Both the position numbers and the translations under genes were made by a program. Below are positions 5,637 through 63,549 of a stretch of DNA of 64,000 bases, in pieces; position 1 is the first letter of the stretch, and the number at the start of each line of letters is the position of its first letter. The notes under the pieces are model-generated. The model had not been told where the DNA came from, ran no database searches, and worked only from the letters and a program-made list of their open reading frames with translations. The DNA comes from Methanocaldococcus sp. (lineage in GTDB: Archaea > AGJL01 > Methanococci > Methanococcales > Methanocaldococcaceae). The stretch lies in the NCBI RefSeq assembly GCF_024490875.1, contig NZ_JACCLX010000033.1, positions 1-64,000 on the forward strand, in the 5' to 3' direction.

Positions 5637-5657
5637 TTATTTTATTGCGTGATTGTT

Positions 5658-6287
5658 ATGTCTATTTTTTTATTTAAAAGAGATAAAGAAAAAAATGTAA
5701 TAAACAATATGAGACTACTTATTAAAATGGCTTTGAATAGTATTAATCTTTTGAAGGAGTATATGCACTCTAAGGATGAAAAACTATTAAAAGAAATTAT
5801 AAAAATAGAAGAAAAAGGGGATGAAATAACCAAAAATATAAGAATAAATTTAGAAAATGCATTTTTACCAAATATGAAAGGAGAATTATCAAGATCTGCA
5901 GAACTATTGGATGAAACCTTAGACAGTTTAAAGCATGCATCTATGCTTTATGAGTTATTAAAATATAAATTAGATAGTTATTTAAAAGAGGAAATAAACC
6001 TCGTTCTAATAATTACTGTTGAAATGTTTAAACACTTAGAAAGGATTTTAGATGTTATTGAAAATGGAGGAGACTTGGATACAATAATTAAAGAAATTAA
6101 AGATAAAGAGAAATTTATTGACGACATCTATCAAAATAAAATTTACAAATATTTAATTAATTTAGAAATCAGATCTTTTTGGGATGGGAAGATACTATGT
6201 GATTTTATTGATAACATAGTGGATATTAGCGACTACATAGAGGATGTTGCAGATGAATTACAGATAATGTATTTCCATATTAAATAA
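5658..6287 (+). CDS. DUF47 (UPF0111) PhoU-like protein
   Basis: All-helical 209-residue cytoplasmic protein of the DUF47 family, which is PhoU-like and usually encoded beside PiT phosphate transporters, as here. Helical blocks with IEEKGDEITKNI and ISDYIEDVADELQIM are typical metal-binding PhoU-like stretches. A GTG at 5649 opens the frame earlier, but GTGAT there is better read as the ribosome site for the ATG at 5658. Its stop is directly followed by the ribosome site of the permease gene, so the two are coupled. It resembles MJ0629. Confidence 0.9.
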   Translation: MSIFLFKRDKEKNVINNMRLLIKMALNSINLLKEYMHSKDEKLLKEIIKIEEKGDEITKNIRINLENAFLPNMKGELSRSAELLDETLDSLKHASMLYELLKYKLDSYLKEEINLVLIITVEMFKHLERILDVIENGGDLDTIIKEIKDKEKFIDDIYQNKIYKYLINLEIRSFWDGKILCDFIDNIVDISDYIEDVADELQIMYFHIK

Positions 6288-6296
6288 GGTGATATT

Positions 6297-7181
6297 ATAA
6301 ATTCTCAAATTTTAAATTTAATTGTAAGTTTTTACTTATTGTTTATCTTAGGTGCTAACAATGTTGGAAATGCTATTGGCACAGCATATGCTTCAAAAGC
6401 GGCATCTTATAAAGGTTTATTAATTTTGTTTAGTGTTAGCGTTATAATTGGATCTATTTTTGCTAAAAATGTTGGTAATACTGTAAATAGTATTTCCTCA
6501 AATGCTTTAATTTCTTTATTAATATCATCCTTAGTTATGACAATATCAACATACAAAAAAGTGCCTATTTCATTACACACTATTATAGTATGCTCATTAA
6601 TTGGCTTAAATTTTAGTTCTTCAAATTTAAAAGTGTTTTTTGAAATTCTATTGAGTTGGATTTTTTCTCCAATTATTGCTATAATTATCGCCTATGTATT
6701 TTATTTAACTTATGAAAAAATAAAAATTCCAATTTTTAAAAAATTATCTATAATTAGAACTTTATTATTGCTAAGTGCTGGAATTGTAGCATTTAACTTG
6801 GGAAGTAACGATTTACCAACAATTTTAGGAACTTTTACGACATCTCAAACAATTTATCTTATTGGAGCAGTTTTTTTGTGCTTAGGAGCTTATTTATATG
6901 GAAACAAAATTTCAGAAACATTTGCTATGATTACCAATTTGAGTGTAACATCTGCATTTATAGCCCAACTATCTGGAGGTTTGGCTGTAATTATATTTAC
7001 TGCATTGGGAATGCCTGTTTCAACAACTCATGCAATAGTTGGAGGTATTTTAGGGGTTGGATTAACCAAAGGAATAAAAACAATAAAGTGGAGTGTATTT
7101 AAAAAAATTATTTTTTGGTGGGTTGTGGCTCCAATAATTGCCTTAATAATTGGGTTTATTATTAAGAAAAAACTAATGTAA
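6297..7181 (+). CDS. PiT-family phosphate permease, apparent AUA start codon
   Basis: Membrane carrier of the PiT family (inorganic phosphate import). Two signature half-repeats are visible: LGANNVGNAIGTA early and LGSNDLPTILGTF in the middle, plus GMPVSTTHAIVGGI near the end; about ten hydrophobic segments. A TTG at 6339 would cut off half of helix 1 and has no ribosome site. The strong GGTGAT at 6288-6293 is followed after three bases by ATA at 6297, exactly where ATG stands in neighbouring genes, and coding continues from there (294 codons). The start codon is therefore inferred to be AUA, or a mutated or misread ATG. It resembles MJ0630. Confidence 0.85.
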   Translation: MNSQILNLIVSFYLLFILGANNVGNAIGTAYASKAASYKGLLILFSVSVIIGSIFAKNVGNTVNSISSNALISLLISSLVMTISTYKKVPISLHTIIVCSLIGLNFSSSNLKVFFEILLSWIFSPIIAIIIAYVFYLTYEKIKIPIFKKLSIIRTLLLLSAGIVAFNLGSNDLPTILGTFTTSQTIYLIGAVFLCLGAYLYGNKISETFAMITNLSVTSAFIAQLSGGLAVIIFTALGMPVSTTHAIVGGILGVGLTKGIKTIKWSVFKKIIFWWVVAPIIALIIGFIIKKKLM

Positions 7182-7729: not shown

Positions 7730-10549
7730 ATGATTGACTTTAAAGAAATAGAAAAAAAATGGCAAAAAAAATGGGAAGAGGCAAAGATTTTTGAGGCAGA
7801 TCCTGATGATAGGGAGAAGTTCTTTATAACTGCGGCATTTCCCTACTTAAATGGTGTATTACACGCTGGGCATTTAAGAACATTTACAATTCCTGAAGTT
7901 GTTGCAAGATTCCAAAGAATGAAAAATAGAAATGTTTTATGGACTTTTGGTTATCATGTAACTGGAACTCCAATATTAGGTTTGGCTGAGTTAATAAAAA
8001 ATAGAGATGAAAAAACAATTTGGGCATATACAAATTTACACGGAATTCCTGAAGAAGAACTTTTACAATTAACAACACCAGAGAAAATTGTTGAATACTT
8101 CTCAAAAAAGGCAACTGAAGCATTTAAAAGAATGGGATTCAGTTTAGATTGGAGAAGAAACTTTAAGACGGATGATGAAGTTTTCAATAAGTTTATTGAA
8201 TGGCAATTTCACAAATTAAAAGAAAAAGGTTTAATTGTTAAAGGTTCTCATCCTGTTAGATACTGTCCAAGATGTGATAACCCTGTTGAAGATCACGACA
8301 TATTAGTTGGAGAAAATGCCACTTTGGTAGAGTATATATTAATTAAATTTAGAACAGAGGATGGCTACATAATGCCTATGGCTACTTTAAGACCAGAAAC
8401 TGTTTTTGGAGTTACAAATGTTTGGGTTAATCCTTCTGCTACATATGTAAAGGCAAAAGTTTATTTAGAGATAGAAAAAGAGGAGGGAGTTGAATTAATT
8501 GATAATGGAATTTGGATAATGTCAAAAGAATGTGCTGAGAAATTAAAACATCAAAATAGAAGAATAGAGATTCTTGAGGAGTTTAAAGGAGAGCAACTTA
8601 TTAACAAAAAGGTTATAAATCCAGTAACTGGTAAGGAAGTTCCTATACTACCTGCTAAATTCGTAAAAACTAATATTGGAACTGGTTGCGTTATGAGTGT
8701 TCCAGCACATGCACCTTATGATTATATAGCATTAAGAGATTTAGGATTAGTTGATGAAATAGATTTAATACCATTAATTGATGTTCCCGGATATGGAAAG
8801 TATCCTGCAAAGGAAATTGTAGAAAAAATGGGTATTAAAAGCCAAGAAGATGTTGATAAGTTAGAGGAGGCTACTAAAAAAATTTATAAAGATGAGTTCC
8901 ACAAGGGAGTTTTAAATGAAAATTGTTTAGATTATAAAGGCATTCCAGTTAGAGAAATTAAAGATAAATTAACAAAGGATTTAATAGATAAAGGTCTTGC
9001 TGAGGTTATGTATGAATTTAGTGAAGAAAAAGTTATATGTAGATGTGGAACTCCTTGTATAGTGAAGATGGTTAAAGGACAATGGTTTATAAAATACTCT
9101 GATAAAAAATGGAAGGAATTAGCTCACAAATGTGTAGATAAAATGAAGTTTATCCCTGAACATTTAAGACAAGTATTCCACGAAAAAATTGACTGGATGA
9201 AAGATAAGGCATGTGTAAGAAGAAGAGGATTAGGAACTAAGTTTCCATTTGAGGAAGGTTGGGTTATTGAATCTTTGTCAGATTCAACTATATATCCTGC
9301 ATACTATACAATTGCAAAATATATAAATGAATATAACATAAAACCAGAACAACTAACCTTAGAGTTGTTTGACTATGTATTTTTAGGTAAAGGAGATATT
9401 GAGAAAATTTCCAAAGATACAGGAATTCCAAAGGATATTATTGAAGGTATGAGGAAAGAGTTTATTTATTATTACCCAGTTGATTGGAGATGTTCTGCTA
9501 AGGATTTAATTCCTAATCATTTAACATTTTATATATTTAATCATGTAGCAATCTTTCCAGAAGAGTATTGGCCAAGAGGCATTGTAGTCAATGGGTATGT
9601 TACAATTGAAGGACAAAAGTTGTCTAAGTCAAAGGGGCCATTAGTTCCAATGATAGAAGTGGCTGAAAAGTATGGGGCAGATGTTGGAAGGTTTTATATA
9701 ACAACCTGTGCTGAATTACCACAAGATGCTGATATTAAATTTAAAGAATTGGAAAATACTAAAAAAGTTTTAGAAAGATTGTATTTATTTGCAAAAGACA
9801 TTGCTGAAAGAAAGGATGAAGAAGGATGTGAATATAATTACATTGACAGATGGTTATTAAGTAGATTATATAGATCTGTTAAGTTATACGATGAATATAT
9901 GGAGAACTTTGAACTTAGAAAAGCGGGAATATTACTCTATCAACTGTTAGATGACTTAAAATGGTATAGAAGAAGGGGAGGAAATAATATAAATGTATTG
10001 AGGGAGTTCTTAGAAGTTATAATAAAATTAATGGCTCCATTTACTCCACATCTATGTGAAGAAATGTGGGAAATGTTAGGAAAAGAAGGATTTGTTTCTT
10101 TATCTAAATTGCCAGAAGTTAAAGAGGAGTTTATAGATGACAGTATAGAAAAAGGAGAGGAATATTTAAAATCAGTAATTGATGACATAAAGGAGATAAT
10201 AAATGTTACAAAAGTCCAACCAAAAAGAATTTATCTATATACTGCTGATGAATGGAAATATGATGTCTTAAAAATAATTAAAGAAAATGAAGGAAAGACA
10301 ATTAAAGAATTAATGCCAATTATTATGAAAAATCCAAAGTTCAGAAAGTATGGTAAAGAAATTCCAAAGTTGGTTAATCAACTGTTAAAAGTTAATGCTG
10401 ATATTATTAATGAAGTAGAAATCCTAAAAAATGCCAAAGAATTTATAAAAAGAGAGTTTAATGTAGATGAAGTTATTATCAATGGAGAAGATAAAGGTAA
10501 CAAAAAGAGAGTAGCAATTCCATACAAGCCAGCAATTTATTTAGAATAA
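7730..10549 (+). CDS. leuS: Leucyl-tRNA synthetase
   Basis: Charges tRNA-Leu with leucine; class I synthetase of the archaeal/eukaryotic type, 939 residues. The HIGH-type motif is HAGH at residues 45-48 and the KMSKS-type motif is KLSKS near residue 630. An editing CP1 insertion lies between (around TLRPETVFGVTN), and CPRCDNPVEDHD and CRCGTPC look like zinc-binding knuckles. A GTG at 7721 opens the frame three codons earlier; GTGAT there reads better as the ribosome site for ATG 7730. It is the last core gene before the accessory island. It resembles MJ0633. Confidence 0.97.
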   Translation: MIDFKEIEKKWQKKWEEAKIFEADPDDREKFFITAAFPYLNGVLHAGHLRTFTIPEVVARFQRMKNRNVLWTFGYHVTGTPILGLAELIKNRDEKTIWAYTNLHGIPEEELLQLTTPEKIVEYFSKKATEAFKRMGFSLDWRRNFKTDDEVFNKFIEWQFHKLKEKGLIVKGSHPVRYCPRCDNPVEDHDILVGENATLVEYILIKFRTEDGYIMPMATLRPETVFGVTNVWVNPSATYVKAKVYLEIEKEEGVELIDNGIWIMSKECAEKLKHQNRRIEILEEFKGEQLINKKVINPVTGKEVPILPAKFVKTNIGTGCVMSVPAHAPYDYIALRDLGLVDEIDLIPLIDVPGYGKYPAKEIVEKMGIKSQEDVDKLEEATKKIYKDEFHKGVLNENCLDYKGIPVREIKDKLTKDLIDKGLAEVMYEFSEEKVICRCGTPCIVKMVKGQWFIKYSDKKWKELAHKCVDKMKFIPEHLRQVFHEKIDWMKDKACVRRRGLGTKFPFEEGWVIESLSDSTIYPAYYTIAKYINEYNIKPEQLTLELFDYVFLGKGDIEKISKDTGIPKDIIEGMRKEFIYYYPVDWRCSAKDLIPNHLTFYIFNHVAIFPEEYWPRGIVVNGYVTIEGQKLSKSKGPLVPMIEVAEKYGADVGRFYITTCAELPQDADIKFKELENTKKVLERLYLFAKDIAERKDEEGCEYNYIDRWLLSRLYRSVKLYDEYMENFELRKAGILLYQLLDDLKWYRRRGGNNINVLREFLEVIIKLMAPFTPHLCEEMWEMLGKEGFVSLSKLPEVKEEFIDDSIEKGEEYLKSVIDDIKEIINVTKVQPKRIYLYTADEWKYDVLKIIKENEGKTIKELMPIIMKNPKFRKYGKEIPKLVNQLLKVNADIINEVEILKNAKEFIKREFNVDEVIINGEDKGNKKRVAIPYKPAIYLE

Positions 10550-16490: not shown

Positions 16491-17423
16491 ATGCTGATAA
16501 TTCATCATTGGGACACTGATGGAATAACTTCAGCAGCTTTAACAGTTAAAGCCTTAAATTTGGAAGATTTTGTGAATGTCTCCCCTCCAATTGGAGAGTT
16601 TAGATTTGATAAGAGAATTGACAAGTATATTGAAAAATACAATAAAATATATGTCTTGGATTTAAATCTTCCACAAGAAGTAGAAAATATTACCAAGGAA
16701 ACAATATTTATTGATCATCATATACAAAAAAAGATTAAAAATCCTAATGTTAAACAGATAAATCCTGTTTTAGATGGAAAGGATTATCCCTCAGCATCTT
16801 TTGTAGTTTCTGAATATTTTTCCATTTGGAACTATTTATCTACACTAGGGGCTATAGGAGATATTGGGGAAAAAGCATTTAGTATTTCAAAAGTTAAAAA
16901 ACTTCTTGATATTGCTAATATAAATAAAAAAGAAGCATTAAAGTTGGTAAATTTAATCGATTCAAATTATATTGTAATGGAAAGAAACGAGGTTGAAAAT
17001 GCTGTGAAAGTTATTTTAAACTTAGAGCCAAAAGATCTTTTAGAGTATGAAAAATGGAACAAGAATCTTGAAAAAATCAATAATGCAATAGAAGAGGCAA
17101 TTTCAAATATGGAAATTAAAAATAGAATCGCATTTATTGAATTTAAAAGTAAATTCAACATTATTTCAAAAGTTGCAAGGAAAGTTGTTTGGAGAATGGG
17201 ATATGATGGAGCAGTAGTAGTAAATGAAGATTTTAATGGAAAGGCACAGATATATTTCAGAATTTCATCTAATTTAATAAATAAAATCAATATGACTGAA
17301 CTTATTCAAACATTAAAAAACAAAAATTACAATGTAGGAGGAAAAAAGGATGTTTTAGGATGTATTTGCGAAAAAGATGATATTAATGAAGTTTTAAAAA
17401 TTATAAATTCATATTTAAGGTGA
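16491..17423 (+). CDS. DHH-family phosphoesterase, candidate PAP phosphatase
   Basis: DHH/DHHA1 phosphoesterase of 310 residues. Motifs: HHWDTDGITSAA (Asp motif I, residues ~4-15), VLDLN, FIDHH (DHH motif), STLGAIGDIGE, then a C-terminal DHHA1 domain ending in GYDGAVVV and a GGKKDVLG version of the GGH motif. Relatives include NrnA-type nano-RNase/pAp phosphatases and RecJ-like exonucleases. Its place between sat and cysC argues for removing 3'-phosphoadenosine 5'-phosphate (PAP), the by-product of PAPS use; a DHH-type PAP phosphatase works with Sat and APS kinase in Methanothermococcus sulfate assimilation. Start ATG 16491 follows GGAGGAG. Confidence 0.85.
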   Translation: MLIIHHWDTDGITSAALTVKALNLEDFVNVSPPIGEFRFDKRIDKYIEKYNKIYVLDLNLPQEVENITKETIFIDHHIQKKIKNPNVKQINPVLDGKDYPSASFVVSEYFSIWNYLSTLGAIGDIGEKAFSISKVKKLLDIANINKKEALKLVNLIDSNYIVMERNEVENAVKVILNLEPKDLLEYEKWNKNLEKINNAIEEAISNMEIKNRIAFIEFKSKFNIISKVARKVVWRMGYDGAVVVNEDFNGKAQIYFRISSNLINKINMTELIQTLKNKNYNVGGKKDVLGCICEKDDINEVLKIINSYLR

Positions 17424-48844: not shown

Positions 48845-51800
48845 TTACTTTTGTTTTTTAAAGTATTTAATATTTATAGGTAAATACTCTTTTGGATCTA
48901 TACCTATAATAAGTCCTTCAATTGTAGTAATGTTAGTTATAATTGTAATGTTTTTTGTTTCGTTTGCATTTATTGTATTAAATTCAAACCAATAAACATT
49001 ATTATAAGATCCATTTAAATCAAAGTTTCCAGAAATATTTATTACACCTGTATTATTTGGTTTATACCAAAAAACATAAACATCTGTAGCATTTATAAAA
49101 CTTTTAACAGAAATAAAGTATCTCTGAGGTAACATAGAAATACTTGAAGTTATGTTCATATTCTTAATAGGTGATATTACAGTTATTGTAATATTTTTAT
49201 AATCATCAAAATCCCAATGTACATAATCATTTGTCGTATTTACAATTAGTGTATAATTACCTGGAATCACAGGAGATGTTAATGTAAAGTTTATAGCAAC
49301 TGTTTGATTTGGTAATAGATATGGAATAACTTTATATGTTTCACCACTCCAACCAATTGGAAGTGTTATATTTACAGATACATTTGATAAGTCCATAGTT
49401 CCTGTATTTTTAACATATACTGTCATATTAAATGTTTCTGATATATTAACCAAAGTTTTAGTAGAAACATTAACTATTGATAAATTATATCGTGGATTAC
49501 CTGAGAGAATTCCTGTTTTTGTTGTAGTAGCTATTCTATAAACATTCCCTCCAGTTATATAGTCATCATAATTTCTTATTTCATGAACAAAAATTTTCCA
49601 AACACCATAATTCTGATTAGGGTTAGTAACATTGACTATATAACTATACCAACTTTCATTTCCATATGCTGTAAATTCTTTATATTTTGTTCCATTTGGT
49701 AAGTATATAGAAACATTTATCGCTCCATCTCCATCATATACCGATAGATTAAATGAAGAAAGTCCTTTTGGTGTTGAGATATACCATGTTTTATTTCCTA
49801 AATTAGTTGTATCATCACCAACAATCATTGCATCAGGAGTACCATAGTAAGTAGATCCATTTATAAGATAAGTTTTATTTAATTTCAAAACAGGAGAATT
49901 TATAGTTAATAAAGAGTAATAGTTACCATTAATACTAGGCCAACTGTTTTCAAAAATATCTACAATCCACCAACCATACACATTACTTGTATTAATCAAA
50001 AAGTAATTTGGAGGTTCCCCAGCTTGTGCATTATTTGGTGCTATATATGAACCATACAATGTTCCATTTGGATAAGATACATTGACAATTAATCCATCTC
50101 CATCATAAATACCAACAGTAAAGTTTGATGTTCCATAAGGTACCATTACATAGTATCTATGAACCATGTTAGTTTGATTGTTTCTACATATTGTTGCCGT
50201 TCCTGAATCTGCTGATGATGGAGGTATTGGTATCTTAAACCACAATCCACCTGATAGATTAGTAGCAAGGATTACTTGATTATTTCCAAAACCATCGTCA
50301 TCATAATATTGTTCTTGTGTTAGTTCTATTCTCCACCATCCAGTTTGCCCATGAATAGATATATTTTGAATAACCCATATTGGATTGTCAACTTCATTAA
50401 ATGATGATAAAGTATTATCATATGGATAAAATGAATAATATAATGTGCCATTAGGGTAATAAACACTAACTTTTAATCTATTTTGAATTACTGGTATTGT
50501 TATATTTATTGGTATTGGAATAATACTAGATAAATTTATAGATCCGTTTAAGTTATCCGGATCAAATATTGCTATATTAAAGTCAGATGTTGCATAAACA
50601 TAGAAATCATGATAACTAGAAGTTACTGTACTTCCATAACTCAACAATGTTGCATTAGGAGTGCCATAATATGTAGTTCCATTTATAACATAAGTTGTAT
50701 TTACTTTAAGGTCTAAACTGTTACTACCACTAATATTTAGACCATAAATATTATAGGCAGAAACTGGTGACAAAGTATTATTAATAACAATTTTCCAAAA
50801 TCCAAAAGAGCCATTTGTATATATTAAAGTGTAGTTCCAATTATTATTTGCAGATTCATTTAATGTTGTATATAATGTCCCATTTGGATAATAAATATTT
50901 ACAATAAAACCGTCTCCATCATAAACTCCAAAACTAAAATTATTAATCCCCTTAGGTACATAAAGCCAATAAGTATGTACTTGCTGATTAACATTACTAC
51001 CTATTGCTACATCCCATACATTATAATATCCTACCCATCCAACACCTCCATCATCTTCTATAATTCCATTTGTTTTATTATCATCATCTCCAAATTTTCC
51101 ATCTTCTAATGTTAAATTAACTACAATTTTATTTTTATAAATTTTTATTATTGCAGGATATTTTTTCCACAATAGTGTATTTGGATTGAACTTGTAATAT
51201 ACTAATTTTAAGAAACTTGTATTTATTGTAAAATTATCTAAATAGGAAAGATTAGATCTTCTTATATTCCTGTTGATTATAGAAGATATATTAGAGTATT
51301 GATATACAATAGAAACATTGACTTTTTCTCCCTTGGAAATATTTGATATTTTAAACTTAATTAAATTAAGTGGCAAACTAACATTAATTTTAACTGGTAT
51401 ATCATTTTTATCAACAAATTTTAAATAATCCAATTTTCCTTTATTTGTAGTTACTGTTATGTTATACAGTTCATTTCCTTCTAAATCTTTAACATATAAA
51501 ATTCCTGTTTTATTATTCTTAAATTCAGTTTTTACATTATACTTTGGAATATAAAGTTTAAATGGATCAATTATTATTCCATTTTTTCTTCTATCTTCAT
51601 CTAATTCTCCACCATCTTTTAATTTAAATATTATAGTTCTTCTATCTTTTCCTATGGTGTAATTTATTAATACAGTTTTATTGTTTATTTTTTTCCAATA
51701 ATAGATATACATTCCTTCTGGAATTTTAAAAGGTAATTTAACTGTTAAATTAACAGAATCTCCAACTGATAGGTTATTTATTATTAATAATATTCTTCCT

Positions 51801-61773: not shown

Positions 61774-63549
61774 TTAATACTCTCTAATTGTAGCGATTTC
61801 TCTTATTTTTTTAATCTCTTCAAATGCAGCTCTTTTAATCTTTGGCTCCACTCTAATTGGTTGGACTATATTTGTCAATTTCCCTCCAGGAGGAACCATT
61901 GGTAAAGCCTCAGCAGGATCTATAACAACATCTAAGAGATATGGCTCATTGCTCAATATAGCCTCTTTTAATTTTTCTTTAATTTCATCTGGACTTGTAA
62001 TTCTATCTGCTTTAACACCATAACTCTCAGCCAACTTAACAAAATCAGGACTCTCTCCTAAATGTACCTCACTCTGTCTCTGTCCATAGTATAAATTCTG
62101 CCATTGATAGACCATACCCAATGTTCTATTGTCAAATATGCAAATAACTACTGGAATGTTATATTCTTTAATTGTTGCCAACTCTTGTGAATTCATTAAG
62201 AAGCCGCCATCTCCAGTAATAGAGATAACATTAGCATATGGCTTAGCAACCTTAGCCCCTACTGCCGCAGGAAATCCAAAGCCCATAGTTCCCAAACCAC
62301 CAGAGGCTAAGAAACTTCTTGGCATTTTTGTTTTAAAGAAATGAGCCATCCACATTTGATTTTGTCCTACATCAGTAGTAACAATAGTATTTTTTAATTT
62401 TGAATCTATCTCCTGTAAAACTTCCATTAAATCTTTAACAAATCTTTGTGGCTTTATTGGCTTATCATCAAAGTCCATCATAGGAATAGACATCTTTTTT
62501 AATTCAAAAATTCTCTCTAACCAATCCTCTTTACTCTTTATCTCTAAAGTTGTTAATACTATTAATAAATCTCTTAATATATTTTTGGCATCTCCAACTA
62601 TTGGAATATCTGCCCTAACATTCTTTCCAATTTCTGCTGGATCTATATCTATATGTATTATTTTAGCCTCTGGGGCAAAGTGTCTGACATCTCCAGTAAC
62701 TCTATCGGAAAATCTACATCCAATTGCTATTAAGACATCACATTCTGTAACTGCATAATTTGCAGCTTTGGTTCCATGCATTCCAACCATTCCCAAGGAT
62801 AGAGGATGATCTTCTGGAAAACTACCTTTACCCATTAAAGTTGTACAAACTGGAATTTTAACAAACTCAGATAATTTAATTAACTCTTCTGATGCCCCAC
62901 TAATTATAACTCCTCCTCCTGCTAATATTACTGGTTTTTCTGCCTCTGCTATTAACTTTGCCGCTTTTTTTATCTGTAAGGGATGCCCAACAGTTTTTGG
63001 TTTATATCCTGGTAAATCAACCTTTGCTGGAATTGGATATTTTTCAATATCAATTTCTCCATCTTGAATATCCTTAGGAATGTCTATATGAACTGGTCCA
63101 GGCCTCCCAGTTGTGGCAATTTCAAAGGCTGATCTAAAAATTTCAGGAATTTCTTCTGTCTTTTTTATTTGGAAATTATGTTTTGTTATAGGCATAAATA
63201 AGCCAAGAGCGTCAATTTCTTGAAATGCATCATTACCTATTAATTTGGTTGGAACCTGTCCTGTTAAAGCAATAACTGGAGAAGAATCTGCATAAGCTGT
63301 AGCTATTCCAGTAACTAAGTTAGTAGCCCCTGGTCCAGATGTAGAAACACAAACTCCTGGCTCTCCGCTCGCTCTTGCAAATCCATCTGCTGCATGTGCT
63401 GCAGCCTGTTCATGTCTTGTGAGTATATGAACTAAGTCACTATCATATAGTGCATCGTAAAAAGGTAACATTGCTCCTCCTGGATAACCAAATATAATCT
63501 TAACACCTTCTGCTTCCAATGCTTTTATAATTGCTTCTGAACCTTTCAT
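61774..63549 (-). CDS. ilvB: Acetolactate synthase large subunit
   Basis: Thiamine-diphosphate enzyme that makes acetolactate or acetohydroxybutyrate, the step before ilvC. 591 residues: FGYPGGAMLPFYDAL, the catalytic Glu in LTRHEQAAAHAADGFARASG, GPGATNLVTGIATAYADSSP, and the TPP site ITGDGGFLMNSQELATIKEYN. ATG 63549 follows GGTGAT; the earlier in-frame codons are the leader. No ilvN regulatory subunit is adjacent. It resembles MJ0277. Confidence 0.96.
   Translation of the reverse strand: MKGSEAIIKALEAEGVKIIFGYPGGAMLPFYDALYDSDLVHILTRHEQAAAHAADGFARASGEPGVCVSTSGPGATNLVTGIATAYADSSPVIALTGQVPTKLIGNDAFQEIDALGLFMPITKHNFQIKKTEEIPEIFRSAFEIATTGRPGPVHIDIPKDIQDGEIDIEKYPIPAKVDLPGYKPKTVGHPLQIKKAAKLIAEAEKPVILAGGGVIISGASEELIKLSEFVKIPVCTTLMGKGSFPEDHPLSLGMVGMHGTKAANYAVTECDVLIAIGCRFSDRVTGDVRHFAPEAKIIHIDIDPAEIGKNVRADIPIVGDAKNILRDLLIVLTTLEIKSKEDWLERIFELKKMSIPMMDFDDKPIKPQRFVKDLMEVLQEIDSKLKNTIVTTDVGQNQMWMAHFFKTKMPRSFLASGGLGTMGFGFPAAVGAKVAKPYANVISITGDGGFLMNSQELATIKEYNIPVVICIFDNRTLGMVYQWQNLYYGQRQSEVHLGESPDFVKLAESYGVKADRITSPDEIKEKLKEAILSNEPYLLDVVIDPAEALPMVPPGGKLTNIVQPIRVEPKIKRAAFEEIKKIREIATIREY

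Follow-up and report, generated by a model that had tools for sequence, protein, structure and literature searches.

The window, the whole stretch of DNA analysed here, comprises 64 kb of a Methanocaldococcus genome (G000; 1,468,100 bases in 44 contigs). On its forward strand, a gene for a DUF47/PhoU-like protein (TIGR00153; 5658–6287) adjoins, on the upstream side, a gene for a PHO4/PiT-type permease (PF01384; 6297–7181), whose product is 294 amino acids long when counted from an ATA codon. The two genes probably form one operon. Read directly, positions 6285–6299 are TAA GGT GAT ATT ATA. TAA (6285–6287) is the stop codon of the DUF47 gene, 9 nt from the ATA and in the same frame. The Shine-Dalgarno (SD) sequence AGGTGAT (6287–6293) matches, over seven bases, the consensus chosen for this analysis, GGAGGTGATC, and the spacer ATT (6294–6296) separates its GGTGAT part (6288–6293) from the ATA at 6297–6299, the putative start codon of the permease. 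The DUF47 gene has a start of its own with the layout GTGAT-TGTT-ATG (5649–5660). Between the preceding stop codon and the TTG at 6339–6341, the permease frame contains no ATG, GTG or TTG; this TTG is the sole standard start codon near the 5′ end, as the initial annotation had pointed out.

The permease product matches PF01384 over residues 19–286 with 156.8 bits against a cut-off of 33.7 (E 9.6e-46), and is homologous to 6l85, described as a phosphate transporter (E 7.1e-26). Its sole NCBIfam match is a sulfate permease model, at 79.8 bits far below the cut-off of 400, and the DUF47 neighbour is only suggestive of phosphate as the substrate. An AlphaFold2 model built with 17 sequences (mean pLDDT 84) places helix 1 at residues 3–25, and TTG 6339 corresponds to residue 15. 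The earlier claim that a start at this TTG would remove half of helix 1 holds in the model.

The spacing of 3 bases between SD and ATA is usual for SD-led translation starts in this genome. Among 253 open reading frames in 455 kb that begin at a standard start and match the SD over 5 bases or more, the spacing is 3 in 97 and 4 in 91, and the bases at the permease are as first described. The further statement that neighbouring genes show GGTGAT-NNN-ATG was loose: although a spacing of 3–4 is the mode, the exact string occurs only twice in the window, at 17419 on the plus strand and at 63547 on the minus strand, and neither site adjoins the permease. The bare SD-ATA motif is no commoner than chance: the window has one match to GGTGATNNNATA, where 0.79 would be expected, and GGTGATN{3,4}ATA has 33 matches in the genome (30 loci, 29 of them read out), compared with 27 when the pattern is reversed as a control. 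The ATA of the permease stands above chance because the gene whose 5′ end it occupies is conserved and because it recurs in all 17 homologues. The EhaA gene also matched the pattern and was considered as a further ATA gene, but was rejected. Only the window's clade, with its four genomes, has this ATA, and there an in-frame GTG that has an SD of its own precedes it; homologues elsewhere have, as judged by eye, ATG or GTG at other places, so that this is not a conserved ATA start.

Homologues of the permease were searched for in 36 genomes of the phylum, 14 of the genus Methanocaldococcus and 22 of the other family, and were found in 17 of them (11 in the genus, 6 in the other family). In every one, ATA follows a GTG-containing SD core, at a distance of 3 bases in G000, G009, G013, G005 and G003 and of 4 bases in the remaining 12. 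The search script looked for ATA near the GTG core, and an unfiltered reading of the same stretches shows the same picture. The position of the ATA is set by the SD and not by an alignment column; the stretch separating the ATA from the first conserved motif is not constant in length, and the 17 ATAs fall in more than one column of a MAFFT alignment. The constancy also exceeds what codon usage gives. The 17 genes contain 763 isoleucine codons, starts counted in (ATA 345, ATT 345, ATC 73), and of the 35 columns that have 10 or more isoleucines none is all ATA, while the start site is ATA in 17 of 17 rows, which are related by descent and do not represent 17 independent events. No standard start can serve the gene in the window's clade (four genomes), whereas the other 13 homologues have GTG or ATG upstream in frame. 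In 12 of the 17, the SD contains a GTG at −9 that is in frame; G003 has an ATG at −12 in frame, and G024 and G028 have further starts upstream. The SD lies one base nearer in G003 and the window's clade; its GTG is out of frame in these genomes, and the ATA is still there. Of the causes originally proposed for the ATA, a rare start codon is the one supported by the suggested comparison with relatives, and a recent start-lowering mutation is contradicted by the same 17 homologues. Neither the conservation of the codon nor its occurrence in other genes was visible to the initial annotation.

The genome-wide search for the SD-ATA pattern also uncovered the gene for ribosomal protein eL41 (L082; PF05162), on the minus strand of contig C8 of G000 (50627–50734). 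This gene, 32–35 codons long, is found in 35 of the 36 genomes, with ATA at the start site in 32 and ATC in three (G021, G025 and G026). The upstream open frame lacks ATG, GTG and TTG in 23 of the 35; an upstream standard start occurs in the other 12, 27–93 nt away in eight, and in four (G018, G019, G022 and G023) it is an ATG at −15 that overlaps the SD. The loci were located by the residues of codons 2–12, which all 35 held, and these codons specify the same residues throughout with many synonymous differences; therefore, the conserved ATG at codon 14 is not where eL41 begins. Four PDB chains of eL41, from organisms that we take to be archaeal and in entries that are presumably initiation complexes, align with the predicted protein residue 2 to residue 2, their first residue falling on the ATA. 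As far as can be told from the genomes, eL41 is an independent case of a near-cognate start. Outside this phylum, eL41 was looked for in 60 genomes of the phylum of G037 without a match, a negative that carries no weight.

Several alternatives to a start at AUA have to be weighed. Translation of the permease might begin by termination-reinitiation from the DUF47 gene, in which case the identity of the codon would hardly matter. We regard this as unlikely as the full account, and it is compatible with an AUA start. The DUF47 gene lies upstream of the permease gene in at least 16 of the 17 homologues, and its stop-to-ATA distance ranges from 4 to 253 nt in the 16 that were measured (it was not found by motif for G015). 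The stop codon ends only 4–13 nt before the ATA in nine of these and overlaps the SD in G003, G020 and G030, as such coupling would have it; in the other seven the distance is 24–253 nt, and the ATA is kept regardless. According to one study, about 20 nt was enough to almost abolish termination-reinitiation coupling in E. coli and in Haloferax (PMC10666635). With gaps of up to 253 nt, coupled re-initiation may contribute in some species but cannot be general.

The main rival to the AUA start takes the GTG inside GGTGAT as the start codon in most homologues (GTG-ATT-NNN-ATA), so that ATA is merely the fourth codon, and supposes that the window's clade lost this start and improvised. The in-frame GTG at −9 in 12 homologues speaks for it, yet that GTG belongs to the SD itself, and the ATA persists in G003 and the window's clade (four genomes), where the GTG is not in frame. 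At the adjoining DUF47 gene, GTG-ATT-GTT is likewise followed by an ATG. The other isoleucine-rich columns of the permease are mixed in codon, except for one that is all ATT, and no in-frame GTG stands upstream of eL41 in the 14 rows of the genus Methanocaldococcus. We give a start at the GTG a small probability.

Translation from TTG 6339, which would yield a protein of 280 amino acids, has in its favour that this is the earliest standard start in frame. It is nevertheless very improbable: the TTG lacks an SD match and would cut helix 1 of the model, the site reads CTC in G004 and G011, and the preceding codons evolve as coding sequence (codons 2–14 of G000 differ from those of G009 or G013 by two synonymous and no non-synonymous changes; G005 differs more). 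Readthrough of the DUF47 stop, giving a DUF47-PiT fusion that needs no start, is suggested by the shared frame in the window but has a negligible chance, since 9 of the 16 measured distances are not multiples of 3 and the frames there disagree. Equally negligible is an ATG-to-ATA base error or a mutation private to this assembly, in favour of which nothing was found; neither can explain the ATA, because the same codon is present in Methanocaldococcus sp. SG1 (G009; LR792634.1), which comes from a separate genome project.

A census was made over 1,181,409 bases (80%) of G000, in which the codon 3–4 bases after an SD was recorded for coding-like frames that have no standard start before this slot or within six bases after it. 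With SDs of at least 6 bases, 138 standard starts (114 ATG, 17 TTG and 7 GTG) stand against 8 other slots, namely ATT 3, ATA 3, AAG 1 and ACG 1; among the codons of long open reading frames, ATA accounts for 4.7% and ATT for 5.0%. When SDs of 5 bases are admitted, the counts become 243 and 17 (ATT 5, ATA 3 and nine single different codons). The near-cognate signal sits in the strong SDs, and the picture dilutes with the 5-base ones. Three candidates were discarded: an ATA slot on C17, judged by eye to be the inside of a broken gene; the AAG slot on C36, by eye the end of an upstream gene; and a GCA candidate on C42, which is antisense inside a longer open reading frame. On C17, a frame without a start at 9546–9956 (L246, L264) is apparently a piece of a broken or frame-shifted gene. 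Applied to 400 kb of G008, the same filter yielded 64 standard starts alongside 5 other slots, of which two are ATT and three resemble wrong frames or fragments. The ATT slots belong to a DUF2209 gene and to one further open reading frame, presumably that of a signal peptidase. On contig C1 of G008 (245711–246370, minus strand; L302), a 219-codon frame has ATT at an SD spacing of 3, and the 48 nt that follow are free of standard starts. The G008 census missed eL41, which is present in that stretch, so this filter misses short genes.

The three ATT genes of the G000 census encode a TPP enzyme (PF02776), a FecCD permease (PF01032) and a DUF2209 protein (PF09974), and all three appear to use ATT as a start codon. 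For the TPP enzyme, the 30 loci read show ATT at the site in 7, ATA one codon earlier in 2, ATG exactly at the site in 15 and GTG there in 3; the remaining 3 are cut or unclear (L168 of G007, unreadable on a short contig, and L177 and L190, unclear). Of three genomes outside these 30 loci, G021 and G026 have an ATG upstream, and G003 gave no output. An ATG lies six codons after the ATT in G008, G001 and G012, and G008 also has a GTG four codons before it; these standard starts could serve the enzyme in the three genomes. Like eL41, the TPP enzyme is a case independent of the permease. The 15 loci of the DUF2209 gene show ATT in 5 and ATA in 3 that no standard codon immediately precedes; in 6 more the ATT comes straight after an ATG or GTG, and 1 has ATG followed by GTT. 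The G000 copy (L191; C8, 9006–9290, minus strand) has 94 codons from the ATT, in an open frame of 97 codons here against 138 in G009 and G013; the 3′ end of the gene may be altered in G000. The FecCD permease was read at 12 loci from 14 genomes searched, with ATT in G000 and G005 and, near the site, TTG in 7 and ATG in 3 of the other 10.

A P-type ATPase gene (PF00690; L280; G000, C40, 13768–16224) has ACG at the ideal SD spacing. The ACG follows GGTGATACT in all four genomes of the window's clade, and the other six members of the genus with a match have ATG. The gene perhaps starts at this ACG. A later ATG (in G000) or GTG (in the other three) could serve as the start instead, because the stretch between is poorly conserved.

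We consider it highly probable that the permease starts at AUA 6297 by means of the initiator Met-tRNA, as one of a small near-cognate class in Methanococcales, and that the permease and eL41 have kept the weak codon. Passages of two papers describe archaeal initiation as involving SD pairing, aIF1, aIF1A and aIF2 with Met-tRNAi, and state that aIF1 destabilises complexes on non-AUG codons (PMC6237735; PMC8211752). Compared with standard SD-led initiation in archaea at AUG, GUG or UUG, the permease has the same SD at the same spacing of 3–4, and only the start codon differs. What is observed for this gene is the codon with its SD and spacing, its conservation and, in the window's clade, the lack of any other start. 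From this we infer that ribosomes use the AUA, with the initiator tRNA as its decoder. The strong SD GGTGAT would place the AUA in the P site of the 30S subunit, where the initiator Met-tRNA (anticodon CAU) would pair with A and U and tolerate the mismatch at the third base, and the permease would still begin with methionine. No tRNA with anticodon UAU was among the 12 tRNAs that came from a scan of 40 genome stretches other than the 64-kb window. A strong SD at ideal spacing may in this way let the initiator tRNA accept AUA, AUU and even ACG at a reduced rate, and the near-cognate class across Methanococcales would comprise AUA, AUU, rarely AUC and possibly ACG. The permease and eL41 most likely keep the weak codon because a low or adjustable initiation rate results. 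Such a reduced rate, and selection for weak initiation, would be the reason why the AUA persists even though one transition gives AUG.

The closest known parallel is infC, the bacterial gene for IF3, whose AUU start codon serves autoregulation. The two cases are alike in that a near-cognate AUH start has been kept over long times behind an SD; here, however, the start is archaeal, the codon is AUA, the genes are a permease and eL41, and no regulator is known. The gene for aIF1, the archaeal start-fidelity factor, was considered as a counterpart of infC and set aside, its first standard start in G000 being an ordinary ATG. It is conceivable that start-codon strength is a conserved control in Methanococcales, the AUA of the permease and of eL41 being kept weak by selection, and that ribosomes without eL41 are less strict and thereby make more eL41, in a loop like that of infC. 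This extension is unlikely; it can be entertained because eL41 is reported as a 30S protein, in the molecule name '30S ribosomal protein aL41' of the 6sw9 row among its PDB matches.

ATT, ATC and ATA are listed as alternative starts in NCBI table 11; an ATA start is allowed there, but the entry is a permission and not evidence of archaeal use. A literature search over open-licence papers (titles, the starts of abstracts and some passages) found no description of conserved AUA starts in methanogens, and the only paper pairing an AUA start codon with archaea, as far as the searched portions go, is on Mycobacterium tuberculosis. The best explanation of the genomic patterns goes beyond the initial annotation: the permease probably has a near-cognate start that is kept across the phylum and is common to a ribosomal protein. 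Annotation tools mostly expect ATG, GTG or TTG, and genes with near-cognate starts are liable to be cut short or overlooked; eL41, with its 32–35 codons, is easily lost. AUA kept in two genes phylum-wide would be a natural test of how strict the archaeal ribosome is about its start codon, and the permease and eL41 together would test whether weak starts serve control in archaea, as AUU does in bacterial infC.
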